Positions 36,102-51,562 of a DNA stretch of 64,000 nucleotides are shown one piece after another. The translations under genes and the position numbers were made by a program. Each line of letters starts with the position of its first letter. Position 1 is the stretch's first letter. The notes below the pieces were generated by a model that was not told where the DNA came from, searched no databases, and saw only the letters and a list, made by a program, of their open reading frames with translations. The stretch comes from Herbiconiux moechotypicola. Lineage in GTDB: Bacteria; Actinomycetota; Actinomycetes; Actinomycetales; Microbacteriaceae. The stretch spans positions 124,001 through 188,000 of the forward strand of contig NZ_JANLCN010000003.1 of assembly GCF_024979255.1 (NCBI RefSeq), in the 5' to 3' direction.

Positions 36102-37079
36102 TCAGCGAGAGCGCCCGCGACGGAGGATGCGCATCAGATCGGCCACGAAGGCCGCCTTATCGCCCTCGACCACCACATCGGTGTCGGGCACGGGCTCGAT
36201 CTCGAACGCCGGAAGCGAGCCGTCGGGCAGCCGCATGAGCCGGGCCCGCGCACCGTACCCGTCGGACAGCACGTTGACCGGTCCGCGCTCCACCGCGCGG
36301 ATCCACCCCGGCTCGAGCGCGAGGGCCACGGCGAAGCCGTCGTGGGCCGGCGAGATGCGTCGCCCCCAGGTGTGCCGGTAGAAGTCGTTGTACTGCTGGA
36401 GCACCGTGGCACTGAAGTGGCTCCACGCGCTCCCGCTGGACCTCAGATCCGCCCAGAAGCCCTCGTCGAGGATCGCCTGGATGGTCACGTTGACACCCAC
36501 CGACAACATCGAGACGCGAGGCGCCGCAAACACTGCGCGCGCGGCCACGGGATCGTTCGACACGTTGGAGTCGGCCGTCAATTCGGAGCCGGGTGGGCCG
36601 AACGGACCCGATCCTCCCATCACCATCACGGATCGATAGCGGGTGAGGATGAGCGGGTCGAGCTGCAACGCGAGCCCCAGGTTGGTGAGCGGGCCGAGCG
36701 CGAAGAGGTGGTGCTGCCGGGGCTCCGCGCGGCCGATCTCCACGATCAACTCGGCGGAGCTCAGCTCGGAGAGCCGGAGCGGCCGCGCCGGCTCTGGCCA
36801 GAGTCCACCCAGTCCGTCGATGCCGTGCACCGGCGCCGCGAGCTCGGCCGTCCCCTCCAGGGGTCCGCTCGCGCCTCGCGCCGTCGGTGTCTCGCCGAGC
36901 CCCGCGAGGTCGAGCACCCGGGCGATGTTGAGCAGGGCGGAGTCGACATCGGTGTTGCCATAGACACTGGTCACCGCGCGCAGCTCCACGTCGTCGCGCC
37001 CGGCCAGATAGAGCAGGGCCATCGCGTCGTCGATCCCCGGATCCGTGTCCACGACGACGCTCCGTATCTCTCGACTCAT
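36102..37079 (-). CDS. Nucleoside hydrolase (IU-NH family)
   Basis: The product is 325 residues. The calcium-binding signature is DTDPGIDDA (residues 11-19), and further active-site segments are HHLFALGPLTNL, SNVSNDPVAARAVFAAP and the late Asp in AHDGFAVAL. The family hydrolyses the N-glycosidic bond of ribonucleosides to base and ribose. The ATG at 37079 is preferred over the in-frame GTG/ATG at 37094 because GGAGGAG lies 6 bases upstream and it overlaps the preceding stop as ATGA. It is the last of the 15 genes of the leftward nucleoside operon. Confidence 0.88.
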   Translation of the reverse strand: MSREIRSVVVDTDPGIDDAMALLYLAGRDDVELRAVTSVYGNTDVDSALLNIARVLDLAGLGETPTARGASGPLEGTAELAAPVHGIDGLGGLWPEPARPLRLSELSSAELIVEIGRAEPRQHHLFALGPLTNLGLALQLDPLILTRYRSVMVMGGSGPFGPPGSELTADSNVSNDPVAARAVFAAPRVSMLSVGVNVTIQAILDEGFWADLRSSGSAWSHFSATVLQQYNDFYRHTWGRRISPAHDGFAVALALEPGWIRAVERGPVNVLSDGYGARARLMRLPDGSLPAFEIEPVPDTDVVVEGDKAAFVADLMRILRRGRSR

Positions 37080-38086
37080 GCGCCGCTCCTCCACTCACCC
37101 ACACGGATGACGGTGCGCCCGCTGTGGGTTCCGCCGAGGAGGGTGCCCACGAGCTCCTCGAGCTCGCCCAGTTCCGCGTCGCGCGACCACGCCCCGATGT
37201 TCCGGGGCCGGAGGTCGCCGGCGAGGCGCTCCCACAGCTCTCGTCTCCGCGCCAGTCCCAGCTCCACACTGTCGATGCCCCGCAGGGTCACCCCACGCAG
37301 GATGAACGGCATGACGGTGGTGGGCACCTCGACACCCCCCGTGAGCCCACTCGCGGCGACCACGGCGCCGTACGCAGATGTGCTGAGCACGTGGGCGAGG
37401 GTGCGGCCGCCCACCGAGTCGACGGCACCGGCCCAGGTGGAGGCGCCGAGCGCGCGGATCGCCGCCCCCGGATCCTCGGGCAGCCGCCCGATCACCCGGG
37501 CCGCGCCGAGCGAGGCGAGGAGTTCCGTCGCCGCTTCTTTGCCCGTCGACGCCACGACCTCGTAGCCGAGACCGGCGAGGAGGTCGACGCTGACGACGCC
37601 CACGCCCCCGCTCGCTCCGGTGACGAGCACCGGCCCGTCGTCAGGGCGGATCCCCGCCTCGAGCAGGGCCTCGACACTCAGCGCCGCCGTGAAGCCCGCG
37701 GTGCCGATCGCCATCGCGTCGCGATCGCTCAGTCCACCGCGATGCATGAGGAACTCTGCCGGAACCCGCGCGTATTCGGCGAATCCGCCGTCGATCCCCG
37801 TACCGAGGGTGTATCCATGGGCGAGAACCGGCGCGCCCACGGGGAACTCCGGATCCGACGACTCGACCACCTCGCCGGCGAGATCGATTCCCGGCACGAT
37901 CGGATAGCGCCGCACCACCTTGCCACCGGTCAGGGCGAGGGCATCCTTGAAGTTGAGGCTGGACCAGGTCACCCGCACGAGCACACCGGTGCCCTCGAGC
38001 ATCCCAGCCGCCCGCTCGGTCAGCTGCCAGGTCACGGCGCCCGATTCCTCCCGGCGCGCCTCGACGGCGGTGTACGTGGTGTTCAA
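37076..38086 (-). CDS. MDR-type quinone oxidoreductase / acrylyl-CoA reductase-like protein (AcuI/YhdH)
   Basis: The product is 336 residues. It matches the AcuI/YhdH branch: SSLNFKDALALTGGKVVRRY, GIDLAGEVVESSDPEFPVG, GTAGFTAALSVEALL and VTGASGGVGVVSVDLLAGLG for NADPH. AcuI reduces acrylyl-CoA; zinc ligands are absent as expected. Start is a TTG at 38086, selected because GAGAGGAC lies 4 bases upstream and the codon overlaps the previous stop as TTGA. In the operon it could reduce an enoyl-CoA made by the neighbouring acyl-CoA enzymes (inference). Confidence 0.82.
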   Translation of the reverse strand: MNTTYTAVEARREESGAVTWQLTERAAGMLEGTGVLVRVTWSSLNFKDALALTGGKVVRRYPIVPGIDLAGEVVESSDPEFPVGAPVLAHGYTLGTGIDGGFAEYARVPAEFLMHRGGLSDRDAMAIGTAGFTAALSVEALLEAGIRPDDGPVLVTGASGGVGVVSVDLLAGLGYEVVASTGKEAATELLASLGAARVIGRLPEDPGAAIRALGASTWAGAVDSVGGRTLAHVLSTSAYGAVVAASGLTGGVEVPTTVMPFILRGVTLRGIDSVELGLARRRELWERLAGDLRPRNIGAWSRDAELGELEELVGTLLGGTHSGRTVIRVGEWRSGA

Positions 38087-39237
38087 GATCGTCCTCTCCG
38101 ATCGGTGGGCAGCTCGCGCCAGCGCGCGACGGTCTGCCAGGGCAGTGCGGTGTGGATCACGTCGTCGACGAGCAGTCCGGCTTCCACCGCGACCGCGATT
38201 CCCGCGATGAAGGCGGCCGCGTCCCGCCCCGACGCCCAGGCGCCGAGGAGAACGCGGGTGCGCCGGTCGTTGACGAGCTCGATCCACCCCGAGTCCCCTC
38301 GCTCCGCACGCACCGAGTCCGTCGGGCGCGCAGCCTCGAGCTCGGCGGACGCGTCGAAGCCCGAGCCGACCGCCGCGATCTCGAACCGGCTCGAACCGTC
38401 GTCGATCGCGGCGGCGCACGCCACCGGTCCGCTCCATACGGTCCGCTCCCCTGAGAGTGTCGCGATCGCCGCGCGCGCCTGCGCTACCGCCCGTTGCGGC
38501 GTGGCGACACCCGGCACGACGTCGCCGATCGCCGCGATCCGCGGGGCGGCGAGCAGCGTCTCGTCCACGACCACGCCTCCGTCGGCGTCGACGGTCACCC
38601 CGGCTCGTTCTAATCCGAGGCCCGTGGTGCCGGGCCGGCGGCGCACGTCGATGCACTTGGTGGCCTCGACCGCCCCCCTGGCCCCGGCATCCCGATCGCG
38701 CACGAGGACTCGGTCACCCAGCCAGTCCCAGAGCGCTCGCTCGGCCGCCCGCGGAAACTCGCGGACGAGCAGGGCTGTCACGTCGCCGAGCACCAGTGTC
38801 GACCCCGCCCTCAGCAGCTGCGCGATCGCGTGCAAGGCGGGCATCCCGGTGCCCCGGACCTCGACTGCCTCTCCCCTGTCGCACTCAGCGTCGGTGTACG
38901 CCGTGTTCTGCTCCCCGTGCGTTCCGGTAGCGACCACACAGCTGTCGAACTCGACGATCAGACTGGGCAGATCAGCGCGCTGCACCCGCAGCGCACTCGA
39001 CGACAGGAAGGCGCCCCGACCGCGCACCACGTCGATCCCGAGCTCCGTCAGCTCCGGTTCTCCGAACCGGTGATCCGGTGCGGGGGCCCACTCCGCGAGC
39101 GCTCCGCCGAGCACGCCGTCGGTCACGAGCGTCACCTCGCGGCCTGCGGCCCGAGCGGCGGTCGCCGCCGCCACCCCGCCCGGGCCTGCTCCGATCACGA
39201 CGAGATCGCGAGGCTCCGGCATCTCTCCGACCACCAT
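38083..39237 (-). CDS. E3-like FAD/NAD oxidoreductase lacking the redox cysteines
   Basis: The product is 384 residues against about 460 for dihydrolipoyl dehydrogenase. FAD motif GAGPGG is at 16-21, VVATGTHG follows the FAD domain, and the C-terminal dimerisation region ends HTALPWQTVARWRELP. Where E3 has [13 protein letters not shown] this protein has GGALAEWAPAPDH (44-56), so both cysteines are gone. The central NAD glycine motif is also degenerate (LVLGDVTALL). It starts at ATG 39237, overlapping the E2 stop by one base. It may be a degraded E3 or a flavoprotein with another job; lipoamide oxidation as usual seems impossible. Confidence 0.8.
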   Translation of the reverse strand: MVVGEMPEPRDLVVIGAGPGGVAAATAARAAGREVTLVTDGVLGGALAEWAPAPDHRFGEPELTELGIDVVRGRGAFLSSSALRVQRADLPSLIVEFDSCVVATGTHGEQNTAYTDAECDRGEAVEVRGTGMPALHAIAQLLRAGSTLVLGDVTALLVREFPRAAERALWDWLGDRVLVRDRDAGARGAVEATKCIDVRRRPGTTGLGLERAGVTVDADGGVVVDETLLAAPRIAAIGDVVPGVATPQRAVAQARAAIATLSGERTVWSGPVACAAAIDDGSSRFEIAAVGSGFDASAELEAARPTDSVRAERGDSGWIELVNDRRTRVLLGAWASGRDAAAFIAGIAVAVEAGLLVDDVIHTALPWQTVARWRELPTDRRGRS

Positions 39238-40442
39238 CAGCCGGCCAGCAATCGGATGGGATCGGCGATCAGGCGCTCGATCTGGGAGCAGAACACACTC
39301 AACTCGGCGCCGTCGATGAGCCTGTGGTCTGCTGAGATCGACAGCGCGACGGTCTTGCGCACGGCCGGCACCCCGTCGACCGCCACCACCGCGTCGGCGA
39401 TCGGCCCGAATCCAGCGATGGCGACCTGCGGCGGCACGACCAGGGGCGTGCCGTACCGTCCTCCGAACTGCCCGTAGTTCGACACCGTGAACGTGGCTCC
39501 GGTGGTCTCCGCCGCGGTGAGCCTGCCCGCTCGCGCCCGGCCGGCGACGTCGTCGATCGCCTCCGCGAGAGCCGCCAGCGTCAATGAAGCGGCGTCGTGC
39601 ACCACCGCGACGGTGAGGCCGTCGGGAACCGCCACCGCGATGCCCAGACCCACCGCGGAGTGGTGGCGCACCATGCCGGCGTCGAGATCGAGAGAGGCGT
39701 TGAACCTCGGATGCGCGCGGAGCGCCGACAGCGCCGCCGCGGCGAACAAGGCGGTGTATGAGACACGGGCTCCGCCTCGCTCCTCCTGCAACGACCGTCG
39801 CGCCCGCACGAGTCCTTCCGCGTCGGCGTCGCGCAGGTCGGTGATGAGCGGAACCTCGCTCCACGCCCTGTGGAGCGCCGACGCGATGCCGCGTCGCATG
39901 CGGCTGAGCGGTTCGACACGGTCCGCATGCCCCGCACCGGGCGGCGACGGTTCGACAGCTGCTGTGGCCGGTATCGCGACTGGTGCCGCGGCCGGGCGCG
40001 ACGACGTGCCGCGGCCCGCCAGGAAGGCCTCGAGGTCGGCCGCGAGCACGCGACCACCCGGCCCGGTCGCGGGCACCTCCGAGAGGTCCGCCCCGTGCTG
40101 CGCCGCCCGCCGGCGCACGGTGGGGGCAGCAGGAACCCGGCCCGCACCGTCACGACTCGGCCGGGCGACCCGATCGCCGCCCACCTCCACCGCTCGCGCA
40201 TCCGCCGTCTCGAGCACCGCCAGCACCGTTCCCACCTCGACGGTGTCACCCTCGGGCGCTCCGTGGCTCACGAGGACACCGTCGACCGGACTGGGGATCT
40301 CGACCGTCGACTTCGCGGTCTCGATCTCCACCATCGGCTCCATCCGCACGAGCACACCGCCTTCGGGCACGAGCCAGCGCACGATGGCCGCCTCGGCCAG
40401 GCCCTCGCCCACGTCGGGAAGGCGGAACTCCGCGGCGCTCAC
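39237..40442 (-). CDS. 2-oxoacid dehydrogenase E2 (dihydrolipoyl acyltransferase)
   Basis: The product is 401 residues with three domains: lipoyl (about 1-75; lipoylated Lys in EIETAKSTVEI), a peripheral subunit-binding domain (about 108-145; RRRAAQHGADLSEVPATGPG), and the catalytic acyltransferase (about 175-400) ending with SISADHRLIDGAELSVF, where His and Asp are catalytic. It transfers an acyl group from E1 to CoA. The presence of E1 alpha and beta rather than a fused E1 fits branched-chain or pyruvate/acetoin-type complexes. GTG at 40442 overlaps the E1 beta stop as GTGA. Confidence 0.92.
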   Translation of the reverse strand: MSAAEFRLPDVGEGLAEAAIVRWLVPEGGVLVRMEPMVEIETAKSTVEIPSPVDGVLVSHGAPEGDTVEVGTVLAVLETADARAVEVGGDRVARPSRDGAGRVPAAPTVRRRAAQHGADLSEVPATGPGGRVLAADLEAFLAGRGTSSRPAAAPVAIPATAAVEPSPPGAGHADRVEPLSRMRRGIASALHRAWSEVPLITDLRDADAEGLVRARRSLQEERGGARVSYTALFAAAALSALRAHPRFNASLDLDAGMVRHHSAVGLGIAVAVPDGLTVAVVHDAASLTLAALAEAIDDVAGRARAGRLTAAETTGATFTVSNYGQFGGRYGTPLVVPPQVAIAGFGPIADAVVAVDGVPAVRKTVALSISADHRLIDGAELSVFCSQIERLIADPIRLLAG

Positions 40443-41422
40443 TCGGCGACTCCGACGGTGCGGCGCACGGCCCGCTTGACCCGATCGACGTCGGGGAGGA
40501 AGAACTCCTCGACACCAGGGACCGGGTAGGGCGTGTCGGGTGCCGTCACCCGCACGATCGGCGCCTCGAGGTCGTAGAACGCCTCCTCCTGCACCGTCGA
40601 CACCACCTCGGCACCGAACCCCGACGTGAGCGGCGCTTCGTGCACCACGACGCAACGGCCTGTGGCGACGACCGCCTCGACGAGTCCCTCGACGTCGAGC
40701 GGCACGATCGAGCGCAGGTCGACCACGGCGGCGCTGATCCCCTCGGCCTCGAGTTCTCGGGCCGCTCGCTCGCAGAGTTGCACGGCCGAGCTCCACGCCA
40801 CCAAGGTCACGTGGGTGCCCTGGCGTGCCAGGCGGATGTGACCCAGATCTACCAGGTGCTCCCCGTCGGGAACCTCGCCCTTCACGAGCCGATATCCCTT
40901 GAGGGGTTCCAGCACCATCACCGGGTCGTCGTCGCGGATGGCGGCGAGCAACAGCCCCTTCGCGTCGCCGGGGGTCGCGGGCGCGACCACCTTCAGGCCG
41001 GGAGTGTGCGCGTAAAGCGCCTCCAGCGCATCCGAATGCATCTCGGGTGTGCGCACACCCCCGCCGAACGGGGCGCGGATGGTGAGCGCGGGCGCGAATC
41101 GCCCCTGCGAGCGGTAGCGATAGCGAGCCACCTGCTGGGTGATCTGGTGGAACGCCTGCGCTCCGAACCCCAGGAACTGGAGTTCGGCGACCGGTCGGAG
41201 CCCGGAGAGGGCGAGGCCCAACGCGGCCCCGACGATCGCGCCCTCGGCGATCGGCATGTCGACCACCCGGTCACCCCCGAACTCGTCGATCAGCCCGGCG
41301 GTGGCACGGAAGACGCCTCCGAGCCGGCCCACGTCCTCGCCCAGCACCATCACGGTCTCGTCTCGGCGCATCTCGTGGGCCAGCGCCGAGCGCACCGCCT
41401 CGAGGATCGTCATCGTGGTCAT
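40439..41422 (-). CDS. 2-oxoacid dehydrogenase E1 component, beta subunit
   Basis: The product is 327 residues, normal for the family. Motifs: VMVLGEDVGRLGGVFRATAG, DMPIAEGAIVGAALGLALSG (TPP-site Glu), TIRAPFGGGVRTPEMHSDAL and the C-terminal domain VDLRSIVPLD. With the alpha subunit it decarboxylates a 2-oxo acid and passes the acyl group to E2 lipoyl. The branched-chain type is favoured by the HSDALEALYAHTPGLKVV region. The ATG at 41422 overlaps the alpha-subunit stop by 4 bases. Confidence 0.92.
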   Translation of the reverse strand: MTTMTILEAVRSALAHEMRRDETVMVLGEDVGRLGGVFRATAGLIDEFGGDRVVDMPIAEGAIVGAALGLALSGLRPVAELQFLGFGAQAFHQITQQVARYRYRSQGRFAPALTIRAPFGGGVRTPEMHSDALEALYAHTPGLKVVAPATPGDAKGLLLAAIRDDDPVMVLEPLKGYRLVKGEVPDGEHLVDLGHIRLARQGTHVTLVAWSSAVQLCERAARELEAEGISAAVVDLRSIVPLDVEGLVEAVVATGRCVVVHEAPLTSGFGAEVVSTVQEEAFYDLEAPIVRVTAPDTPYPVPGVEEFFLPDVDRVKRAVRRTVGVAE

Positions 41423-42411
41423 TCCCGGCCTCCACTCAGCTGCTCGCGACGCTGACGCTCGAGGCGGGCGGGCGGATTCTTGTAGACGTGGTCGAACACC
41501 CCGTCGGCACCCGGTTCCGGCTGTGCCAGGGCCCAGTCGAGGGCCGCGTCGAGCCGAGCCCGCACGGAGGCGGTGTACTCACGCTCGCGCTCGTCGTTCC
41601 AGGCGCCCTCCGCGCGCAACACACCCTCCAGTCGCTCGATGGGGTCGTCGCGTTCCCGCTCCGCGTGCTCGTCGGGGTCGCGATACCTGCTCGGGTCGTC
41701 ATTGGTGTTGTGTGCCCCGGCGCGATAGGTGAGGCACTCGACGAGGGTGGCGCCGCCGCCCGATCGTGCGCGCTCGACCGCGTCGAGAACGGCCTCGTGC
41801 ACGGCGTCGAGGTCGTTGCCGTCGACGGTGCGGCCGGCGATGCCGAAACCGGATGCGCGGTCGGCGATCCGCGATGCCCGCGTCTGCCGAGAGGTGGGGG
41901 TCGAGATCGCCCACCCGTTGTTCTGCACCACGACGACCACGGGGGCGCCGGTCACGCCTGCGAGGTTGCACGCCTCGAAGAAGTCGCCCTCGCTCGACCC
42001 GCCGTCCCCGACGAAGGCGAGCACCACGCCCGGCTTCTTCTGCAGGGCGAGACCCCAGGCCAGGCCCACCGCGTGCGGAAGCTGTGCAGCGAGCGACACC
42101 TGGTTGCAGAGCGCGTTCACGCCCGTCGGCACGGTGAAGCCGGCGGGCAGGTAGCGGTACAGGAGGAAAAGGAGTTCCAGCGGCACCCCGTGATGGACGA
42201 GGGCCGGGAGCTCACGGTACTGGGGCACCATCCAGTCGACGGCGGGATCGAGCGCCATCGCCGCTCCGACCAGGGTGGCCTCCTGTCCGCGCGCCTCACC
42301 GAAGGTGCCGAACACGCCCTGGCGTTGCAGCCCCACGGCGTAACGGTCCACCGCGCGCGAGAGCTTCATGAGTTCCAGCGCGGAGCGACGCTCTGCGGGA
42401 TCCAGGGTCAT
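41419..42411 (-). CDS. 2-oxoacid dehydrogenase E1 component, alpha subunit
   Basis: The product is 330 residues. The TPP-binding motif runs from GDGGSSEGDFFEACN to VVQNNGWAIS. The phosphorylation-loop-like region is TYRAGAHNTNDDPSRYRD. Sequence pattern fits branched-chain or acetoin-type E1 rather than mitochondrial-type pyruvate E1. It partners with the beta subunit encoded next. Its ATG overlaps the enoyl-CoA hydratase stop as ATGA, so acyl-CoA made by the complex probably goes on to that hydratase. Confidence 0.92.
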   Translation of the reverse strand: MTLDPAERRSALELMKLSRAVDRYAVGLQRQGVFGTFGEARGQEATLVGAAMALDPAVDWMVPQYRELPALVHHGVPLELLFLLYRYLPAGFTVPTGVNALCNQVSLAAQLPHAVGLAWGLALQKKPGVVLAFVGDGGSSEGDFFEACNLAGVTGAPVVVVVQNNGWAISTPTSRQTRASRIADRASGFGIAGRTVDGNDLDAVHEAVLDAVERARSGGGATLVECLTYRAGAHNTNDDPSRYRDPDEHAERERDDPIERLEGVLRAEGAWNDEREREYTASVRARLDAALDWALAQPEPGADGVFDHVYKNPPARLERQRREQLSGGRE

Positions 42412-43220
42412 CGGTCGCCGTAGGGGGCGTCTCGGGCGTCGAGGAACGCGCCCATGCCGTGGTCGCCGAGGGTCTTCATGATCGCGTCCTTCTCGGTCAC
42501 GCCCCGCGAGTCGAGCAGGTAGGTGTCGATCCAGCGGTGCGCCGACTGGGCCGAGTGGAATCCCTGGATGTCCATGGTGAGGCGCACGGCCCGTTTCGCG
42601 AGGGTGAGCGCATAGCCGGGGGCGTTCGCGATGCGGCGAGCGATCCGGGCGGCCTCGCTCGCCAGATCCGCGTCGTCGACCACCCAGTTCACGAGCCCGA
42701 GCTCCTTGGCCCGCGCGGCGGAGATGCGGTCTCCGGTGAGGTAGAGCTCGTTGAAGCCCTTGAAGCTCGTGAGCCAGGGCAGCAGGAGTAACGGCGAGAG
42801 CGCACCGTGCCGGATCTCCGGTTCCCCGAAGGAGGCGCTGGCCGCCGCGATCGTGAGGTCGGAGGCCAGGGCCACGTTGCAGCCGCCGGCGAGTGCGAAC
42901 CCGTTCACCGCGGTGATGACCGGCTTCGCCGCGTACCACAGCCTCGAGATGGCGTCGGCGTTGCCCCGGGTGTGCGCATCCCACTCGATCGAGTCGGCGG
43001 GCAGCCCGTCGGCCTCGAGGTCGATCCCGGTGCAGAAGGCCTTCGTGCCGCTCCCGGTGAGCACGATCACCTTCACGGTCTCGTCGCGCTCGGCCCGGTC
43101 GATGGCCGCCGTCAGTTCCCGGAACGTCTGCTGGCGGAGAGCGTTCAGCTTCGCCGGCCGGTTGATCGTGATGGTCGCGACGAGATCGTCGACGTCGTAC
43201 AGCAGATCATGATCGCTCAT
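42408..43220 (-). CDS. Enoyl-CoA hydratase/isomerase family protein
   Basis: The product is 270 residues with the crotonase fold. The oxyanion-hole segments are KAFCTGIDLEADG and NGFALAGGCNVALASDL; INRPAKLNALRQQTF is the first strand-helix. The usual catalytic glutamates are partly altered (FGEPEIRHGALSPLLLLPWL), and the 110-145 region resembles hydratases of unusual acyl-CoAs more than FadB. The substrate is undetermined. It starts 4 bases after the DUF3830 stop and overlaps the E1 alpha gene. Confidence 0.88.
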   Translation of the reverse strand: MSDHDLLYDVDDLVATITINRPAKLNALRQQTFRELTAAIDRAERDETVKVIVLTGSGTKAFCTGIDLEADGLPADSIEWDAHTRGNADAISRLWYAAKPVITAVNGFALAGGCNVALASDLTIAAASASFGEPEIRHGALSPLLLLPWLTSFKGFNELYLTGDRISAARAKELGLVNWVVDDADLASEAARIARRIANAPGYALTLAKRAVRLTMDIQGFHSAQSAHRWIDTYLLDSRGVTEKDAIMKTLGDHGMGAFLDARDAPYGDR

Positions 43221-43224: not shown

Positions 43225-43710
43225 TCACTGCTCGAAGCGGCTGATGGTGGCGATCTGGCGCCCCTCGCCGAGGGTGCGGTAGCAGGTGGCGAAGAGCTCC
43301 TCGTGCCGTTCGTCGATCGACGCGAAGAGGTTGCCGCGCACGTCGAGCTCCGTCATGCGTCGCAGCTCCCCCTCTCCGTACCAGATCGCGATCTCGGCGG
43401 CTTCTTTCGGGTTGCCCTCCAGGTTCACCTTGTGGGCGATGTTGCCCGCGTTCCGGCCGGGCTGGAGGTAGTAGTAGATGAACTGACCGGGCTTGGGATG
43501 CACGGTGTGGTTCTCCAGGGCGAGGTCGACGGCGGGGCAGTAGAGATAGAACTCGTAGCCCGAGAACACCGAGTGGTTCGTCGGCCCGGTGAGCGGCTCT
43601 TCGAGGAAGTCCCACACCGTCTGACAGGTGACGGGTGCCTCGTCCCAGTGCATCCGTACCGTGAAGTCGGCGCCGATCGCCGGGATGGTGAGCCTGAGGT
43701 CCTTGGTCAT
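43225..43710 (-). CDS. DUF3830 family protein (cyclophilin-like fold)
   Basis: The product is 161 residues. I recognise the DUF3830 family from FTVRMHWDEAPVTCQTVWDF, LENHTVHPKPGQFIYYYLQP and IAIWYGEGELRRMTELDVRGN; its structures are cyclophilin-like. The biochemical role is not established. It recurs in N-heterocycle and nucleoside catabolic loci, which fits its place between the nucleoside phosphorylase and the hydratase. A 60-base leader before it holds a GTGTC-type simple repeat. Confidence 0.72.
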   Translation of the reverse strand: MTKDLRLTIPAIGADFTVRMHWDEAPVTCQTVWDFLEEPLTGPTNHSVFSGYEFYLYCPAVDLALENHTVHPKPGQFIYYYLQPGRNAGNIAHKVNLEGNPKEAAEIAIWYGEGELRRMTELDVRGNLFASIDERHEELFATCYRTLGEGRQIATISRFEQ

Positions 43711-43770: not shown

Positions 43771-44475
43771 TCACGCCAGGGTCGCCAGGGCGAGCTCCAC
43801 CATGGTGCCGACCGCGCGCTCGCGCTCGGTCGCGCTCATCGACGGGCCGCCCAGGGTGTGGTCGGCGACCGTGCCGATCGTGAGGGTCTGCACCCTCTCG
43901 CGCAGTCCGATGGCGTAGAGGCCGGCGGCCTCCATCTCCACGGCGAGGGTGCCCAGACCCCTGAGGTACTCGATGAACCCCGTGCGAGGCGAGTAGAAGA
44001 AGTCGGTGGAGAAGACCGGGCCCACGTGCACCTGCCCGTCGACGACGGAGGCGGCGCTCATGGCGCGGGCGAGCAGCTGGGGCGACGGTGCGTGGCTGAG
44101 AGCGATCCCGTGCTCCTCGAGCGAGCGCAGACCCGAGTCGGTGTGCGCCGACGAGGCGATCACCACGTCTCCGACCGCGACCTCGGCCGGGATCCCGCCG
44201 ACGGTCCCCACCCGCACCACCCGGCGCACTCCGTACTCACGAACGAGCTCGGTCACATAGATCGAGAGCGAGGGTATGCCCATCCCCGAGGCGATCACCG
44301 ACAGCGGGCGGCCGTCCACGGTGCCGGTGTATCCGAGGATGCCCCGCACATCGGTGACGAGCCGCGCGCCGGTGAGGTAGGTCTCCGCGATCAGCTGCGC
44401 GCGCCGCGGGTCGCCGGGCAGGAGCACGTCGGGGGCGAAGTCGCCCGGTTCGGCGGAGATGTGGGCTGTGGGCAT
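43771..44475 (-). CDS. Purine nucleoside phosphorylase (DeoD-like, PNP/UDP family I)
   Basis: The product is 234 residues. Motifs: LLPGDPRRAQLIAETYL (phosphate loop), SGMGIPSLSIYVTELVREYG, RVGTVGGIPAEVAVGD, GTLAVEMEAAGLYAIGL (ribose-binding Glu-Met-Glu), and TVADHTLGG near the catalytic Asp. It cleaves nucleosides with phosphate to base and ribose-1-phosphate. GTVGG replaces the more common GSCGA, so specificity may differ. It follows the second nucleoside permease gene by 1 base. Confidence 0.9.
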   Translation of the reverse strand: MPTAHISAEPGDFAPDVLLPGDPRRAQLIAETYLTGARLVTDVRGILGYTGTVDGRPLSVIASGMGIPSLSIYVTELVREYGVRRVVRVGTVGGIPAEVAVGDVVIASSAHTDSGLRSLEEHGIALSHAPSPQLLARAMSAASVVDGQVHVGPVFSTDFFYSPRTGFIEYLRGLGTLAVEMEAAGLYAIGLRERVQTLTIGTVADHTLGGPSMSATERERAVGTMVELALATLA

Positions 44476-44476
44476 G

Positions 44477-45784
44477 TCAGATTCCTTTTCCGTAGGAGTC
44501 GCCGACCGCGGCCGGCGGGGTGACCTTCCCCGCGAAGCCGCAGACGGCGATCACCGTGACGACGTAGGGGATGGTGAGCAGCAGCTGCTGCGGCACGGCT
44601 GTGAGGCCGAGCGTGCTCAGCGTCTGCTGGATGCTGTTCGCGAAGGCGAACAACAGTGCGGCGGAGAGCACGCCGAGGGGCTTCCACCGCCCGAAGATGA
44701 GGGCGGCGAGTGCTATGTAGCCCTGCCCCGCCGTCATGTCCTGCGTGAACGCGCCCACCGACCCGATGGTGAAGAAGGCCCCACCGAATCCGGCGAGCAG
44801 ACCCGACAGCAGCACGTTGCGCCAGCGCACACGGGTCACGTTGATGCCCATCGTGTCGGCCGCCAGCGGATGCTCCCCCACGGCGCGCACGCGCAGGCCC
44901 CAGCTCGTGCGTGTGAGCGCCACCGCGATCACGGCGACGGCGAGGTACATGGCATAGACGATCAGCGACTGGTCGAAGAGCACCGGGCCGATCACCGGGA
45001 TGTCCGACAGCACGGGGATCGACAGATCCGGCAGCCGCTCCGGGGTGTTCCACACCGCGCCGTCGGGCACGAGCACCTGGTTGTAGACGAAGGTGGTGAC
45101 GCCGGAGATGAGCACGTTGATCACCACACCCACCACGATCTGGTTGACGAGGTAGTCGATCGAGAACGATGCCAGGATCACCCCGGTGAGCACACCCGCG
45201 GCTGCGGCGGCGGCGAGGCCGACGAAGACGTTGCCGGTGAGACTGGTCGCCACCGCCGCCGAGAACGCGCCCGCAAGCAGCTGCCCCTCGATCGCGATGT
45301 TGATCACGCCCGACTTCTCGGCCAGCAGTCCCGACAGGCCGCCGAACACCAGCGGCACAGAGAGCAGCAGGGTGCCCGAGAGCAGGCCCACCACGGGGAT
45401 CGTCTGCCCGGCGCCGGCGGCGACGAGGAAGGCGACCACACCCGACGCGATCACCGCGGCGAGAGGGAGGCGGCCGACCGGCCTGTGCCGGAGGACTCGA
45501 ACGCAGGTCCAGGCGGCGCTCGCCGCGAACAGCACCGTCATGACCCAGCCGGCCGCGAGCGTGGGCACCTGCATGGGAGGCAGCTGCCACGCCTCGGTGC
45601 CACCGGCGAGCGTGAACACGGTGACCGCCTGCGGCCGCTGGGACGTGGTCAGGGCGACCAGCAGCGCGACCAGCACGACGAGAACCGAGACCGCGATCCA
45701 CGCCTTCGCGCGCCCGGCCGCGGACACGGAGGCGCGCAGCGCCGACCTCGCGTGGTCACGGACGATGTCGATTCCGTCGGTCAT
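44477..45784 (-). CDS. Nucleoside ABC transporter permease (NupQ-like)
   Basis: The product is 435 residues. About 120 N-terminal residues with extra helices precede the conserved permease core, recognised by FGGLSGLLAEKSGVINIAIE, INVLISGVTTFVYNQVLVPD and RAVGEHPLAADTMGINVTR. This is the BmpDEFG/NupABC family of nucleoside importers. The ATG overlaps or abuts its neighbours: 45784 overlaps the NupP-like stop by 4 bases. Confidence 0.9.
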   Translation of the reverse strand: MTDGIDIVRDHARSALRASVSAAGRAKAWIAVSVLVVLVALLVALTTSQRPQAVTVFTLAGGTEAWQLPPMQVPTLAAGWVMTVLFAASAAWTCVRVLRHRPVGRLPLAAVIASGVVAFLVAAGAGQTIPVVGLLSGTLLLSVPLVFGGLSGLLAEKSGVINIAIEGQLLAGAFSAAVATSLTGNVFVGLAAAAAAGVLTGVILASFSIDYLVNQIVVGVVINVLISGVTTFVYNQVLVPDGAVWNTPERLPDLSIPVLSDIPVIGPVLFDQSLIVYAMYLAVAVIAVALTRTSWGLRVRAVGEHPLAADTMGINVTRVRWRNVLLSGLLAGFGGAFFTIGSVGAFTQDMTAGQGYIALAALIFGRWKPLGVLSAALLFAFANSIQQTLSTLGLTAVPQQLLLTIPYVVTVIAVCGFAGKVTPPAAVGDSYGKGI

Positions 45785-47004
45785 CGGCTCAGCTCCACCT
45801 TCTGCAGGGGCGTGATCGCGCGCCGTTCACTGCGGCGGAGACCGAAGATCTTGGTGATCAGGGCGGGCGCGCAGAGGAACAGCACGATCAGCGCCTGGAT
45901 CACGAGCACGATGTCGATCGAGAGCCCGGTGTAGGCCTGCATGTTCACTCCGCCGGCGCGGAGGGCGCCGAAGAAGAGAGCCCCCACCAGCACGCCCACC
46001 GGGTGCGATCGGCCGAGCAGCGCCACCATGATGGCGTCGCTCCCGATCGATCCGGCGATGCCCAGTTTGAGGAAGTGCTCGTCGCCGGCGAGGTGGATCG
46101 AGCCGGCGAGCCCGATCACTGCCCCGGAGAGCGCCATGCCCATCGTCCACACCACAGCGGGCCGCATGCCGGCTGTGCGGGCGGCGAAGGGGTTCGATCC
46201 CACGGCGGCCAGCTGGAAGCCGATCGTCGATCGCTGGAAGGTCCACCACACCAGCACCGTCATCCCGATGGCCACGACGATGCCGGCGGTCGTGCGCGTG
46301 CCAGCACCGAAGAGAGGGCCGAGCGATGCACTGGCGTCGAGGGCCGGCGACATCGGCGCGTTCGTGCCCGGCCGTTGGAACGCGGGCAGCGTGAGCAGGT
46401 AGGCGAGCACCAGGTAGGCGATCTGGTTGAACATGATGGTGAGGATGACCTCGTGGGCACCGGTCTTGGCCTTCAGCAGGCCCACGATGCCACCCCAGAT
46501 CGCTCCCGCGGCGACGCCGGCGAGCAGGGTGAGCACGAGGTGGATCCCGGGTGGCAGATGGAGCATGAAGCCCACCATCGAACTCGCGACGGCGGCCATG
46601 ATGATCTGACCCTGGGCACCGACGTTGAACAGGCCCGCCCGGAACGAGATGCTGAGTCCGAGGCCCGCGATCGCCAGGGGTGTCGCCCAGGCCAGCGTCT
46701 CGGTGAGGGGGCGGAAGAACCCGGCGGCATCCGGCGCGGTGGGGTCGACGACGGCGCCGGTGAACATCGCCGCGTACGCGCTGCCGATGGTCTGGCCCGC
46801 CGCGGCGAAGAAGTCGCCGGGCCGTCCGAAGACGTACGCCAGTGACGCCATCGCGTCGGCGTCGGTGAGCACCATGAGCACCGTTCCGAGGGCCATCGCG
46901 AGCACCACGGCGAGCACTGTCACCACCACCGAACGATCGGTGAAGGCCCGCAACAGCGCGTCCGCCCAGCGTCCGAGCCGCCCTGCGGTCGTTCTGGTCG
47001 TCAT
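45781..47004 (-). CDS. Nucleoside ABC transporter permease (NupP-like)
   Basis: The product is 407 residues with about nine to ten helices. Family motifs are GLGLSISFRAGLFNVGAQGQ, IWGGIVGLLKAKTGAHEVIL and TIMFNQIAYLVLAYLLTLPA, then AVGSNPFAARTAGMRPA. It pairs with the NupQ-like permease to form the channel for nucleosides. Starts with ATG 47004 overlapping the ATPase stop by 4 bases. Confidence 0.9.
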   Translation of the reverse strand: MTTRTTAGRLGRWADALLRAFTDRSVVVTVLAVVLAMALGTVLMVLTDADAMASLAYVFGRPGDFFAAAGQTIGSAYAAMFTGAVVDPTAPDAAGFFRPLTETLAWATPLAIAGLGLSISFRAGLFNVGAQGQIIMAAVASSMVGFMLHLPPGIHLVLTLLAGVAAGAIWGGIVGLLKAKTGAHEVILTIMFNQIAYLVLAYLLTLPAFQRPGTNAPMSPALDASASLGPLFGAGTRTTAGIVVAIGMTVLVWWTFQRSTIGFQLAAVGSNPFAARTAGMRPAVVWTMGMALSGAVIGLAGSIHLAGDEHFLKLGIAGSIGSDAIMVALLGRSHPVGVLVGALFFGALRAGGVNMQAYTGLSIDIVLVIQALIVLFLCAPALITKIFGLRRSERRAITPLQKVELSR

Positions 47005-48527
47005 CGGGCACTCCCTACGGCTTCGGCGGCGGGGATGCCCGCCATCATGAGCCCGATCACGTCGCGCGGAGTCTCCGGCGGCACCACGCCGACGATTTCC
47101 CCCCGGTACATCACGACGATGCGGTCGGCGAGGTTGTAGACCTCGTCGAGCTCGGTCGACACGATGACCACCGCGGCCCCCGCATCCCGTTCGGCCACGA
47201 TCCGGGCGTGCACGAACTCGATCGAGCCCACGTCGAGTCCACGGGTGGGCTGCGAGGCGATGAACAGGGCGAGCGGGCGGGCGAGCTCGCGCGCGAGCAC
47301 GATCTTCTGCTGGTTCCCGCCCGAGAGTGTTCCGGCAAGAGCCGTCGGGCCCGGTGCGCGGATGTCGAACTCGGCGATCGCGGCCTCGCCGTTCTCCCGG
47401 ATCGCCGCGCGGTGCATCGCGATCCCCGAGGTGAACGGCCCGCCGCTCAGGCGGTCGAGAACGAGATTGTGCTCGATCGTGAACGAACCGATGATGCCGT
47501 TCGCCTTGCGATCCTCGGGGACGAACCCCACCCCCGCAGCGAGGATGTCCTTGACCGCCTTGCCCGCGACTTCGGCGCCGTCGACGGTCACGGATCCGCT
47601 CGACACGGGCCGCAGGCCCACCAGGGCTTCGACGAACTCGGTCTGCCCGTTGCCCTCCACACCGGCGATCGCCGTGATCTCGCCGCCGCGGAAGGCGATC
47701 GAGATGTCGTCGACCGCGACCGCACCGTCGCTGCCGACGACCGTGAGGCCCGAGACGACCGTGCTCGATCGCCAGTCCCTACGAGGCGGCGACTTCGTGA
47801 TCGTGAGGGAGACCGAGCGGCCGACCATCATGGCCGCCAACTCCGACTCGGTGCTGCCGAGGGGCGCCTCACCCACCACACGACCGTGGCGGATGACCGA
47901 GATCCGATCGGCGATCGCCCGCACCTCCCTGAGCTTGTGGGAGATGAACACGATCGCCTTCCCCTCCGCACTCAACTGCCGCAGGATCGCGATGAGCTCA
48001 TCGGTCTCCTGAGGGGTGAGCACGGCGGTCGGCTCGTCGAAGATCAGAACCTGCGCGTCGCGGGCGAGCGCCTTGACGATCTCCACCCGCTGCTGGACCC
48101 CGACGGGCAGCTCGGAGACGAGCGCGTCGGGATCCAGCTGGAATCCGAACCGTTCCGACACCGCGACCACGTGCCGGCGTGCGGCGGCGTAGTCCAGGAG
48201 CCGGGCCGAGGTCTTCGGCTCGTCGCCGAGCATGACGTTCTCGGCGACGGTGAAGACCGGGATGAGCATGAAGTGCTGGTGCACCATGCCGATCCCGCGC
48301 TCCATCGCCGCCCGCGGGCTCTCGAACACCACCGGCTCGTCGTCGACGAGGATGCGGCCGGCATCGGGCTGATGGAGCCCGTAGATGATGTTCATCAGGG
48401 TCGACTTACCGGCCCCGTTCTCGCCGAGGATGCAGTGGATCTCGCCCGGGTTGATCGTGAGCGAGATGTGGTCGTTCGCGACCACGTCCCCGAACGTCTT
48501 GGTGACCTCGTCCAGCAGGATTCTCAT
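47001..48527 (-). CDS. Nucleoside ABC transporter ATP-binding protein (two ATPase domains)
   Basis: The product is 508 residues with duplicated nucleotide-binding domains. Domain 1 is complete: Walker A GENGAGKST, signature ELPVGVQQRVEIVKAL, Walker B VLIFDEPTAVLTP and ISHKL. Domain 2 has a degenerate Walker A (GVEGNGQTE) but an intact LSGGNQQKIVLARELA signature, as is usual for the NupO/sugar-type family. The ATG at 48527 is preferred; the frame extends far upstream as a shadow. It lies 11 bases after the binding-lipoprotein gene. Confidence 0.93.
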   Translation of the reverse strand: MRILLDEVTKTFGDVVANDHISLTINPGEIHCILGENGAGKSTLMNIIYGLHQPDAGRILVDDEPVVFESPRAAMERGIGMVHQHFMLIPVFTVAENVMLGDEPKTSARLLDYAAARRHVVAVSERFGFQLDPDALVSELPVGVQQRVEIVKALARDAQVLIFDEPTAVLTPQETDELIAILRQLSAEGKAIVFISHKLREVRAIADRISVIRHGRVVGEAPLGSTESELAAMMVGRSVSLTITKSPPRRDWRSSTVVSGLTVVGSDGAVAVDDISIAFRGGEITAIAGVEGNGQTEFVEALVGLRPVSSGSVTVDGAEVAGKAVKDILAAGVGFVPEDRKANGIIGSFTIEHNLVLDRLSGGPFTSGIAMHRAAIRENGEAAIAEFDIRAPGPTALAGTLSGGNQQKIVLARELARPLALFIASQPTRGLDVGSIEFVHARIVAERDAGAAVVIVSTELDEVYNLADRIVVMYRGEIVGVVPPETPRDVIGLMMAGIPAAEAVGSAR

Positions 48528-48538
48528 GAGGCGGTGGC

Positions 48539-49633
48539 TCAGGCCTTCGGGATGCTCGGGGAGTCGATCACGATGGTCCCGTCGGAGATCTGGGTCGCGA
48601 GCTCGTCCAACGTCGCCTGGAGGTCGGTCGGGATCGCGGACTCGAAGTCGTGGAAGGGTGCGAGCCCCACCCCGTCGTTCGCGAGAGTTCCCACGTACGG
48701 GTCGCTGCTGAAGCCGCCGTCCTGCTGCTCCTGGATCACCGAGAAGACGCCGCTGTCGATGCGCTTCATGACGGAGGTGAGGAAGAGGTCCTTGTACTCG
48801 GGAACCGTCTCGTAGCCGTCGGTGTCGACCCAGATGGCCTTCACGTCCTTCCCGGCGGCGTTGGCGTCGCGGATGGCGGCCAGCGTTCCGGTTCCGGCGC
48901 CACCGGCGACCGGCATGATGATGTCGACACCCTGGTCGATCATGCGGCTGGAGAGCTGCTTGGCGAGGTTGGTGTCGTTCCAGTCCCCCGTCGCCGAGCC
49001 GTTCTGGGCCGCCTTGTCCCAGCCGACGACTTCGACCGAGGTCGCGTTGTCGTCGTTGTACTTCGCCACGCCATCGGCGAAGCCGTCCATGAACAGCGTC
49101 ACGGTGGGGATGAGCTGGCCGCCGTAGGTGCCGACCTTGCCGGTCGTCGTCATGCCCGCGGCGAGGTAGCCGGCGAGGTAGCTGGCATCGGCCGTGTTGA
49201 AGAGGATGGGCTTCACGTTGGGCAGGTCGCCGGGGGGCTGGTCGTCGATGGTCATGAAGTGGGTGTCGGGGTTGGCCGTGGCCTCCTGCACCGTGATGTC
49301 CTGCATGTCGTAGCCCATCGTGGCGATGATGTCGCAGTCCTGTCGCACGAGGCTCTGCAGGTTGGGCAGGTACTGGGAGGTGTCCTTCGACTCGGCCACC
49401 TTCACCTCGACCCCGAGCTCCGACTCCGCCTTCGTGAAGCCGTTCCACGACGACTCGTTGAAGCTCTTGTCCTTGATGCCGGACTCGCCCGAGTCCATGC
49501 AGGCGAGCACGTCGCTCGCGGCCGCGGCACCCGAGCCGGAGGCCTCGGACGGGGGCGTGGCGCAGCCGGCCAGAACGATCCCTGCTGCGGCGAGTGCCAG
49601 CGCGGCGGCACCATAGCTGACGTGATTTCTCAT
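48539..49633 (-). CDS. BMP family nucleoside-binding lipoprotein
   Basis: The product is 364 residues. The signal peptide ends in the lipobox LAGC (Cys24). The mature protein has the BMP/PnrA features DSGESGIKDKSFNESSWNGF, the Asp in TMGYDMQD, and IDDQPPGDLPNVKPILFNTA with the Phe/Asn pocket residues. Studied members bind purine and pyrimidine nucleosides. It is the extracellular receptor for the importer encoded next. GGAGAATCC precedes the ATG. Confidence 0.92.
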   Translation of the reverse strand: MRNHVSYGAAALALAAAGIVLAGCATPPSEASGSGAAAASDVLACMDSGESGIKDKSFNESSWNGFTKAESELGVEVKVAESKDTSQYLPNLQSLVRQDCDIIATMGYDMQDITVQEATANPDTHFMTIDDQPPGDLPNVKPILFNTADASYLAGYLAAGMTTTGKVGTYGGQLIPTVTLFMDGFADGVAKYNDDNATSVEVVGWDKAAQNGSATGDWNDTNLAKQLSSRMIDQGVDIIMPVAGGAGTGTLAAIRDANAAGKDVKAIWVDTDGYETVPEYKDLFLTSVMKRIDSGVFSVIQEQQDGGFSSDPYVGTLANDGVGLAPFHDFESAIPTDLQATLDELATQISDGTIVIDSPSIPKA

Positions 49634-49682: not shown

Positions 49683-50714
49683 TCATGCGCCCTGGACGCC
49701 GCGCTCGAAGTGGCGGTGCACCTCGCCGACCAGCGCTGTGCGGGTGTCGTCGTCGAGGAAGGCGGAGCGGAAGGAGTTCTCGGCCAGCACCCGGAGTGTG
49801 GCCAGGTCGTAGCGCGGGTCGTCGTGCAGCGCGATCATGTTGTCGCCGACGTACCCGCCGAAGTACGCGGGATCATCGGAGTTGACCGACACCAGCAGCC
49901 CAGCGTCGAGCATCCGGCCGAGCGGATGCTGCGCGATGCTGTCGACGCCGCGCAGACGCACGTTCGACAGCGGGCAGACGGTGAGCGGCACCCGCTCCTC
50001 GGCCAGTCTCGCGACGAGCGCCGGGTCTTCCAGCGCGCGGACCCCGTGGTCGATGCGCTCCGCTCCCAGGGCGTCGAGTGCCTCCACGACGTAGGCCGGC
50101 GGCCCTTCCTCGCCCGCGTGGGCGACGCGGCGCAGGCCGAAGAGCGCCGCGGCGGCGAAGACGTCGTGGAAGGCGGCCGGCGGGTGGCCGGCTTCTGCCG
50201 AGTCCAGCCCGACGCCGACGATCCGGTCGAGGTAGGGCTCCGCCTCCCGCAGGGTCTCCGCGGCCGCCTCGGCGCCCAGATCGCGCAGGAAGCACAGGAT
50301 CAGCGAACTCGTCAGGCCGTGGGTCTCCACGCTGCGCGAGACCGCGCTCCAGAGGCCGTCCATGACCACCGACATCGGGACGCCTCTCCCGGTGTGCGAC
50401 TGCGGGTCGAAGAAGAGCTCGACGTGCCGCACACCTTGCGCGGCCGCGCGGTCGAAGTAGGCGGTCACGATGTCGGCGAAGTCGGCGACGGTCGTGAGCA
50501 CCGCGGTCACCTGGTAGTAGACGTCGAGGAACGACTGGAGGTCGTCGAAGCGGTACGCGTCCTTCAAGGCCTCGGCGGTCGCCCAGGGCAGCGTCACCGC
50601 GTTGCGTTCGGCGAGCGCGAACGCGTGCTCGGGCTCGATGGTGCCCTCGATGTGCACGTGCAGCTCGGCCTTCGGGATGGCCCGCACGAAGGCTGCAGTC
50701 GCGGCGTCGGTCAT
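49683..50714 (-). CDS. Adenine/adenosine deaminase family protein (Ade type)
   Basis: The product is 343 residues with a complete active site: zinc ligands His19/His21 (ELHVHIEGT), RRVAHAGEEGPP (zinc His and catalytic Glu), RIDHGVRA, and VNSDDPAYFGGY. VGVGLDSAEAGHPP and the GEEGPP loop are typical of adenine aminohydrolases rather than canonical adenosine deaminase. It would convert adenine, or an N6-substituted adenine, to hypoxanthine plus ammonia or an amine. The ATG at 50714 overlaps the upstream gene's stop as ATGA. Confidence 0.88.
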   Translation of the reverse strand: MTDAATAAFVRAIPKAELHVHIEGTIEPEHAFALAERNAVTLPWATAEALKDAYRFDDLQSFLDVYYQVTAVLTTVADFADIVTAYFDRAAAQGVRHVELFFDPQSHTGRGVPMSVVMDGLWSAVSRSVETHGLTSSLILCFLRDLGAEAAAETLREAEPYLDRIVGVGLDSAEAGHPPAAFHDVFAAAALFGLRRVAHAGEEGPPAYVVEALDALGAERIDHGVRALEDPALVARLAEERVPLTVCPLSNVRLRGVDSIAQHPLGRMLDAGLLVSVNSDDPAYFGGYVGDNMIALHDDPRYDLATLRVLAENSFRSAFLDDDTRTALVGEVHRHFERGVQGA

Positions 50715-51562
50715 GACTCGAGCGGCACGACGGATCCCTCGAGGATCGTCATCGCGTACCAGTAGTGATATCCGCGCCCCGCCTGGATCGGCCCGAGCTC
50801 CGCCAGCTCCTCGTACTCCGACTCGCCGAACTCGAGCTCGGCGTCGCCCGAGTAGGCACTCCCGACCTCGACATCGCGGAGCGTCAGCGTGGAGAGTTCC
50901 AGCACGGGCGACTCGGCCGGCGCGAGGGTGGGGAACATCCGCAGGTAGAGGTGCGGGATGGTCGCCGGCGGCGGCACGAACCCCTCGGGCTCTGCGGTGT
51001 CGAGCTTCACTGACGCGGTCGCCAGTCGGCGGTTCATGCTGTTGACGTGGGCGTGGAGCGTGTGCCCGGGCTGACGCTGAGGCCCGCCTCGACCCAGCTC
51101 CACCGGGCGAGAGATGTAGGCCGCTCCGAGCTTCTTGGGAAAGCCCTGCACGAGCCCACGGATCTGCGAGAGCTCGGTGCTCACCCACGAGAAGGCGAGG
51201 AAGCCGACCTTCTTCTCCCCCATCATCGCGTGGATGAGCAGGTAGGCCTCGTCGTGCTGGCCCCGGGCCGGATCGGCCTTCATCCTCGGATCGGCGTCGG
51301 CACCGGCGCTCCAGCGGCCGAATCCGAAGCTCGCACCGCCCTCGGCCGTGGGCACCAGGCCTGTGGGGAGGTAGCGGGCGAGTCGTTCGCGATCGGCCGT
51401 GAAGTCGACGACCAGCATCTCGGCCGAGTAGTCCCACGGCGGCGGGGGGAACAGCGAGGTGCGCCCGGAGGGCGACAGCGGCAGGGTGAAGCCGCGGAGT
51501 CCGGTTGCGGAGAGCGCCGGATCGTCGTCGTACTCGACGTGCGCGGGAGTCTCGGTAGTCAC
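50711..51562 (-). CDS. Acetoacetate decarboxylase superfamily protein
   Basis: The product is 283 residues. The Schiff-base lysine region is GLVQGFPKKLGAAYISR (about residue 140), with FGFGRWSAG, YLLIHAMMGEKKVGFLAFS and the C-terminal GYHYWYAMTILEGSVV. The superfamily decarboxylates or otherwise reacts 3-oxo acids through an imine; many members are not true acetoacetate decarboxylases. It is the first gene of the 15-gene operon. GTG start at 51562, with the conserved element C 24 bases upstream. Confidence 0.82.
   Translation of the reverse strand: MTTETPAHVEYDDDPALSATGLRGFTLPLSPSGRTSLFPPPPWDYSAEMLVVDFTADRERLARYLPTGLVPTAEGGASFGFGRWSAGADADPRMKADPARGQHDEAYLLIHAMMGEKKVGFLAFSWVSTELSQIRGLVQGFPKKLGAAYISRPVELGRGGPQRQPGHTLHAHVNSMNRRLATASVKLDTAEPEGFVPPPATIPHLYLRMFPTLAPAESPVLELSTLTLRDVEVGSAYSGDAELEFGESEYEELAELGPIQAGRGYHYWYAMTILEGSVVPLES

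Follow-up and report, generated by a model that had tools for sequence, protein, structure and literature searches.

Gene content and layout of the operon

Fifteen genes, all on the minus strand, occupy positions 36102-51562 of the window, that is, of the whole 64-kb stretch of Herbiconiux moechotypicola DNA analysed here (contig C22 of a 4.28 Mb genome in 51 contigs). The original prediction, made from the sequence alone, had read them as one leftward operon and named the family of each product. Both points are confirmed: intergenic gaps do not exceed 60 bp, the 14 junctions span -19 to +60 bp with an overlap of 4 bp in seven of them, and all 15 products match the named families in Pfam or NCBIfam profiles. 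Third-position GC lies between 0.85 and 0.94 across all 15 genes with the starts used in this analysis; an initial crude gene pick had given 9 of the 15, as several frames extend upstream. The combination of genes and its reading as an operon are supported. From 51562 to 36102 the genes are as follows.

50711..51562, minus strand: acetoacetate-decarboxylase (ADC)-like protein, MppR-like (PF06314, 5e-35; below the MppR equivalog cut-off of TIGR04460, 158.7 bits against 380)
49683..50714, minus strand: adenosine-deaminase-family protein, probably of the adenine-deaminase type (PF00962; NF006850, 475 bits, cut-off 419; PDB 3RYS, 3OU8)
48539..49633, minus strand: BMP/PnrA-like binding lipoprotein (PF02608, 6.7e-52)
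47001..48527, minus strand: ABC ATPase with two nucleotide-binding domains, NupO-like (PF00005, two stretches)
45781..47004, minus strand: ABC permease, NupP-like (PF02653)
44477..45784, minus strand: ABC permease, NupQ-like (PF02653)
43771..44475, minus strand: DeoD-type purine nucleoside phosphorylase (PNP) (NCBIfam profiles)
43225..43710, minus strand: DUF3830 protein (PF12903, 1.6e-24; PDB 3KOP, 1e-7)
42408..43220, minus strand: crotonase-fold, hydratase-like protein (PF00378)
41419..42411, minus strand: 2-oxoacid dehydrogenase E1 alpha (PF00676, 2.4e-71)
40439..41422, minus strand: 2-oxoacid dehydrogenase E1 beta (PF02779/PF02780)
39237..40442, minus strand: 2-oxoacid dehydrogenase E2 (PF00364 lipoyl, PF02817 E3-binding and PF00198 catalytic domains)
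38083..39237, minus strand: E3-derived flavoprotein, likely an E3 pseudoenzyme (partial Pyr_redox_2; motif alignment)
37076..38086, minus strand: AcuI/YhdH-type acrylyl-CoA reductase family protein (TIGR02823, 375.7 bits, cut-off 297.25; PDB 4JXK, 1O89, 5GXE)
36102..37094, minus strand: nucleoside hydrolase (PF01156, 6.8e-58)

The two halves of the operon meet between the DUF3830 and crotonase-fold genes, where the junction is 4 bp. No sigma-70-like promoter was found in a scan of 35500-52800, and the one minus-strand terminator-like site within the operon (44659-44675) lies inside nupQ; the five terminator-like sites of the scan are not clearly above the number in shuffled sequences (mean 3.3, sd 1.9). 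Repeats on either side, as an inserted segment might leave, were looked for and none was convincing.

The nucleoside half begins with the ADC-like protein, whose closest solved relatives are MppR and other ADC-like proteins (E 3e-36 and 4e-34). Aligned to PDB 4JM3, 6EEJ and 4ZBO, of which we take the last two to be Sbi00515, it keeps the lysine of the PK motif, presumably the catalytic lysine, and the preceding VQG. It differs from MppR in its catabolic context and in its score. The deaminase was originally called Ade-type, which is probable given its scores of 357 bits to 3RYS and 341 bits to 3OU8, all other chains at E<=1e-30 reaching 124 bits at most; we take 3OU8 to be Pa0148, an adenine deaminase, and 3RYS to be of the same kind. 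Nevertheless, the PDB gives both structures the label adenosine deaminase, and NF006850 does the same for the window protein. The BMP/Nup importer is complete, with a lipoprotein, a double ATPase and two permeases, and its substrate is predicted to be a nucleoside. The PNP passes the cut-off of NF004489 (245.9/230) and lies under those of TIGR00107 (230.4/232.25) and NF009914 (244.2/338); it has no second match in its own genome at E<=0.001. The same lipoprotein, double ATPase, permeases, phosphorylase and deaminase occur in one operon in the BMP/NupNOPQ-type importer systems that carry PNP and deaminase genes, but the window operon is joined in addition to the regulon of an NMT1-type transporter and to acyl-CoA genes.

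In the acyl-CoA half, the original label of enoyl-CoA hydratase holds for the fold but not for the catalytic residues. The crotonase-fold protein has an asparagine (N115) at the position of the first catalytic glutamate of hydratases and retains the second (E135), positions 115 and 135 being those that we take to be the two catalytic sites; the two glutamates required of an enoyl-CoA hydratase are not both there. Across 32 aligned loci the first position is N in 15, V in 12, L in three, T in one and E in one, whereas the second glutamate is conserved in 32/32. Members of the crotonase superfamily with a single glutamate are typically isomerases or lyases and not hydratases.

E1 alpha, E1 beta and a lipoylated-type E2 with an E3-binding domain are all present according to Pfam, and the E2 translation, read by eye, shows ETAK and DHRxxDG, presumably the lipoyl site and the E2 motif. 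The three proteins score under every NCBIfam cut-off listed for them. Since the genome has two further E1/E2 loci (E1 37-45% identical, E2 29-51% in pieces), the complex of the operon is an extra one. Its E1 alpha, E1 beta and E2 have the same domains as pyruvate and branched-chain 2-oxoacid dehydrogenases (the nearest solved E1 alpha structures are 1W85, pyruvate, and 1X7Y, 2-oxoisovalerate), but the window set has a degenerate E3 and is coupled to a single-glutamate crotonase and an AcuI-like reductase.

The E3-like flavoprotein keeps its first FAD motif and its AIGD motif. Three features are absent in the alignment: the CxxxxC redox disulfide, the GxGxxG motif for NAD and, at the C terminus, the His-Glu pair (H-P-x-x-x-E). 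The protein has 384 residues against 463 in its nearest relative (L055/L049), which has SxxxxC together with the NAD motif and the His-Glu pair. The homologues of R. ruber and R. opacus, on two Rhodococcus plasmids, and of genome G856 carry CxxxxC. These motifs make an E3 pseudoenzyme likely; an AlphaFold model (mean predicted local distance difference test score 57, three sequences in the alignment) is too poor to use. Since the local protein is degenerate, dihydrolipoamide oxidation is probably supplied from elsewhere, and a canonical lipoamide dehydrogenase is encoded at 20959-22362 in the window. The AcuI-like reductase passes the cut-off of TIGR02823 and has 5GXE/5GXF among its matches; unlike AcuI it lies under the AcuI equivalog cut-off (305.4/440), and no gene for dimethylsulfoniopropionate or acrylate use was recognised beside it.

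The two halves in related genomes

The nucleoside core of the operon occurs in a congener (genome G011) as part of a larger set of genes, whose counterparts in the window flank the fifteen genes.

51729..52751, minus strand: Lrp/AsnC-type regulator in two halves (PF13404/PF01037; 73.8% by tblastn in the congener)
51563..51728, minus strand: region upstream of the operon, with its promoter (comparison with the congener)
35167..35937, minus strand: NMT1-type transporter permease 1 (PF00528; 68% in the congener)
34349..35170, minus strand: NMT1-type transporter permease 2 (PF00528; 67% in the congener)
33239..34306, minus strand: NMT1/THI5-like substrate-binding lipoprotein (PF09084, 4.4e-27; 74% in the congener)
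32478..33242, minus strand: ABC ATPase of the NMT1-type transporter (PF00005; 72% in the congener)

In the window, the NMT1-type transporter genes (32478-35937) lie downstream of the nucleoside hydrolase, past an AT-rich gap of 164 bp. They make up a complete NMT1/THI5-type ABC importer (binding protein, permease and ATPase) whose substrate class is a prediction. In the congener, the regulator (74%) is followed by the NMT1-type transporter (67-74% for its four genes), the ADC-like protein (85%), a dehydrogenase presumably of the Ldh_2 family, the deaminase (68%) and a nucleoside hydrolase that is 34% identical to that of the window over 193 aa. The best NCBIfam match of the dehydrogenase is L-sulfolactate dehydrogenase (213/500 bits). 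No orthologue of the Nup importer, the PNP, the DUF3830 protein or the acyl genes was found in the 40 kb read around this locus; the remaining window proteins match just two genes there, one for another enoyl-CoA hydratase (36%) and one for a sugar-type ABC ATPase (34%), both at a distance of several genes. Searches of the whole congener genome found no DUF3830 match at E<=0.001 and no crotonase-fold match at E<=1e-50; for BMP and PNP the search covered the 40 kb.

The upstream regions point the same way. ATGTTGCAGAA occurs twice upstream of the operon (51605-51615 and 51667-51677), and even with one mismatch these are its only sites in the 64 kb; with one mismatch allowed, it has a single copy in the 40 kb of the congener, upstream of the first transporter gene. 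The region upstream of the window ADC-like gene and that upstream of the congener transporter also have in common the blocks GTAAACA-TATGTTGCA and AATGTTGCAGAAT...CTCGCACTTAA. Judged by these comparisons, the regulator and the NMT1-type transporter are part of the same gene set as the operon. The unit is larger than 15 genes and is composite. In the window the second importer, the PNP, the DUF3830 protein and the acyl module are placed between the deaminase and the hydrolase, behind the promoter shared with the congener, and we infer that these extra genes were gained in the window lineage rather than lost in the congener.

The acyl half recurs in a metagenome-assembled genome (MAG) of the Microbacteriaceae (G069, contig SCRE01000014.1, locus L055), in the same order as in the window: the hydratase-like protein (75%), E1 alpha (71%), E1 beta (78%), E2 (56%), the E3-like protein (32% by tblastn, 39% by pairwise alignment) and the AcuI-like reductase (64%). 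It is preceded by a LacI-type regulator and a directly adjoining class I/II aminotransferase, which scores best to GntC (311.5 bits, cut-off 415). Divergent from the block are genes for a RihA-like nucleoside hydrolase (393.7/433 bits), an ECF transporter, a prolidase-like amidohydrolase and a ribokinase-like kinase; several of these neighbour assignments lie under curated cut-offs, and the two ATPases of the ECF transporter were called by eye. The window-type nucleoside genes were not found beside the block in the 20.8 kb read, and the two nucleoside hydrolases are 29% identical. Even so, both genomes with the acyl block have nucleoside genes next to it. The MAG has four nucleoside hydrolase genes, against five each in the window genome and the congener; the chance that one of its four, in 3.9 Mb, lies within three genes of the block is below about 1% (4 x 6 / ~3,700 genes), a post hoc estimate with an assumed gene number that becomes larger if any nucleoside gene is counted.

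Both parts are uncommon elsewhere. The ADC-like protein is found at this level in 2/16 congeners and in 2/199 genomes of the family (its own and G011, 20 further family genomes having matches at 29-32%), and at E<=1e-50 in only its own among 179 genomes of the order, so the nucleoside core itself is rare. The DUF3830 protein at E<=1e-20 matches only its own among 394 genomes of the class. A conserved whole operon was considered and is rejected within the samples searched, as the key proteins match their own genome only. Distant relatives of the DUF3830 protein (27-36%, in six other genomes of 199) were tried as a guide to the substrate; they lie in mixed contexts and are uninformative, and no paper naming the family was found in the literature searched.

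The wider surroundings of the crotonase-fold protein were explored with a contig scan that retrieved 31 loci by means of two short peptide patterns, and hence missed relatives without both. The more distant relatives, outside L055, are 35-55% identical; the surroundings of L055-L059, L083, L062-L064, L066, L071 and L072 were read, and the remaining loci were assessed through matches to window proteins. E1/E2 genes are found near the crotonase relative in two of the 30 other loci (L072 and L073), both on Chloroflexi MAG contigs, where a crotonase relative at 40-42% has an E1 alpha, E1 beta and E2 set at 29-39% that is divergent from it or 6-7 kb off (in L072, 3377-4186, plus strand, and 2206-3189, minus strand). 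A reductase 25-27% identical to the AcuI-like protein lies near the crotonase relative in L074, L077, L081 and L082. The actinobacterial relatives at 52-55% sit in other contexts, and the crotonase subfamily, taken as a whole, has no fixed link to nucleosides. E1 alpha relatives at 46-53% on the two Rhodococcus plasmids and in G856 belong to other clusters, with no crotonase-AcuI pair in the stretches read.

Interpretation of the composite unit

The locus combines known parts in a new way. This combination is rare among the genomes searched, and no paper combining a nucleoside hydrolase with a 2-oxoacid dehydrogenase in an operon was found in the literature searched. With each half carried apart in relatives, the operon has the appearance of two modules that became joined. 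We favor, with a probability of about one half, the reading that a purine-nucleoside regulon has been joined to a module that converts a 2-oxo acid into an acyl-CoA. In this scheme, nucleosides would enter through the Nup importer, the NMT1-type transporter or both, the phosphorylase or the hydrolase would release the base, and adenine would be deaminated to hypoxanthine. A 2-oxo acid from the same catabolism would be oxidatively decarboxylated by E1/E2, with E3 activity provided by a housekeeping lipoamide dehydrogenase such as that at 20959-22362. The crotonase-fold protein might then carry out an isomerisation or elimination involving the beta or gamma carbon; the AcuI-like protein would reduce the resulting enoyl-CoA.

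The enzymes of the three loci, taken together, suggest that a shared 2-oxo acid is their hub. An Ldh_2 dehydrogenase converts a 2-hydroxy acid into a 2-oxo acid, and an aminotransferase does the same with an amino acid. Such a hub would be the most economical one because 2-oxo acids, or their amino or hydroxy forms, are possible substrates for each of the four families (ADC-like, Ldh_2, aminotransferase and E1/E2). For the ADC-like relative MppR, one report describes an active-site lysine acting on a gamma-hydroxylated 2-oxo acid (PMC10367076).

Several observations weigh against a joint function. No step from a nucleoside to a 2-oxo acid can be recognised among the enzymes of the window operon, and the low identity of the hydrolases (29% to that of G069, 34% to that of G011) means that their specificity may differ. 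No other genome among those searched has the two halves together. The crotonase-fold protein is found only in its own genome among 394 of the class at E<=1e-60 (a sample without G069) and among 16 congeners at E<=1e-50. In the contig scan, PNP or hydrolase genes occur 5-7 kb off in three of the 30 other loci (L063, L071 and L064), apparently in other transcription units. The original prediction had explained all the genes by a nucleoside with an acyl-forming side chain, and had named conserved homologous loci that split the halves as refuting it. Such loci were found, in G011 and in SCRE01000014.1, while the acyl block adjoins nucleoside hydrolase genes in both of its carriers; the idea is left standing in part.

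The simplest alternative is that the operon contains two unrelated units under one promoter, one for scavenging purine nucleosides and one for the catabolism of 2-oxo acids derived from amino acids. The Lrp/AsnC-type regulator would sense amino acids and induce both on nutrients from dead cells or litter. Tentative as it is, this explanation is nearly as likely as the favored one. It agrees with the separation of the halves in the two best relatives, with the type of regulator at the head of the operon, and with the position of the MAG acyl block directly after an aminotransferase, where the pathway could start from an amino acid without any nucleoside. Nevertheless, the MAG block also adjoins nucleoside genes, and mere co-regulation would require neither a junction of 4 bp nor a place within the regulon.

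A special form of the favored reading, in which both halves act on one compound, would make the substrate a nucleoside bearing a C4 side chain, X-CH2-CH2-CH(NH2/OH)-COOH, of the 3-amino-3-carboxypropyl type, as in acp3U or S-adenosylhomocysteine. The side chain would become a 4-substituted 2-oxobutanoate, which E1/E2 would convert to 3-X-propionyl-CoA. X would be lost by beta-elimination on the single-glutamate crotonase-fold protein or by an earlier gamma-elimination on the ADC-like protein. The AcuI-like protein would reduce acryloyl-CoA to propionyl-CoA, and base and ribose would be salvaged. Alone among the schemes considered, this one uses the aminotransferase or Ldh_2 enzyme, ADC-like lysine chemistry at C4, E1/E2, a crotonase that is not a hydratase and AcuI in order. 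The best match of the MAG aminotransferase, GntC (311.5 bits, cut-off 415), is a pyridoxal-phosphate enzyme acting at the gamma carbon, and that of the ADC-like protein, MppR, performs an analogous reaction on a 2-oxo acid (PMC10367076). Yet the GntC and MppR scores both fall short of the curated cut-offs, an aminotransferase gene is missing from the window operon, and no enzyme specific to S-adenosylhomocysteine or acp3U was identified among the genes; the scheme is a chain of inference and we regard it as unlikely.

The example given originally, a cytokinin riboside (N6-prenylated adenosine) from which the deaminase frees prenylamine for oxidation by the acyl genes, is very improbable: prenylamine would need amine or aldehyde oxidation and a CoA ligase, and the 15 genes encode no such enzymes, its side chain would, from what is known of the families, yield no 2-oxo acid for E1/E2, the nearest solved relatives of the deaminase (3RYS and 3OU8) are ones that we take to be adenine deaminases, and nothing was found that favors this substrate specifically. 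Its one point of contact is that Patl2390, of the same family as the window deaminase (cog1816), is described in one report as a cytokinin deaminase that takes N6-methyl- and N6,N6-dimethyladenine and not adenine or adenosine (PMC13296781).

If the two halves act together, as in the favored reading, the locus would give genetic access to the way in which bacteria use side chains on nucleosides that are modified or carry an amino acid; little is settled about what becomes of these after RNA turnover. For a C4 side chain, the locus would represent an undescribed route served by a complex whose own E3 became a non-redox pseudoenzyme. If the halves act apart, the locus would still illustrate clearly how a catabolic regulon is assembled from whole modules behind a conserved promoter, and how an E3 subunit loses its chemistry.

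Flanking genes and other loci

Beyond the regulator lies a further deaminase-family gene.

52784..53854, plus strand: second, distant adenosine-deaminase-family protein (PF00962, 2e-30), divergent from the Lrp-type regulator

This gene is also divergent from the regulator in G011 (58.5% over 340 aa). Directly past the NMT1-type transporter, at the other end, are two minus-strand genes (30629-31582 and 31606-32445) for a second Lrp/AsnC-type double-domain regulator and an aldo/keto reductase. Within the 40 kb read in G011, this regulator matches only the regulator of the first type (25%), and the aldo/keto reductase has no match. A plus-strand gene at 28838-29962 encodes a lipoprotein that by eye resembles the NMT1-type binding protein and has no Pfam match at 1e-5.

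The DUF3830 genes at 27-36% (L044-L048, L050 and L053) have varied catabolic surroundings, several of them with ABC transporters and aldehyde dehydrogenases, the product names for L044-L048 being assigned by eye. In L056, L059, L060, L061, L069 and L083 (Nocardioides, Microbispora and Thermobifida), each locus has a single-glutamate crotonase relative at 52-55% with two genes for ABC ATPases no more than 8 kb off. In the three loci read further, this relative has an ADP-forming CoA ligase and a cyclic-type amidohydrolase nearby, identified by Pfam in L056 and by eye in L059 and L083. Further neighbours in L056 are a luciferase-like oxygenase and a nitrilase-like protein, the latter of which L083 seems to share (by eye). 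These loci possibly represent an undescribed pathway for ring compounds. On plasmid pMK-3 of Rhizobium sp. NIBRBAC000502774 (L052), a crotonase relative at 55% lies beside a ring-opening amidohydrolase, a CoA ligase and an NMT1-like ABC transporter, with an allophanate hydrolase nearby.

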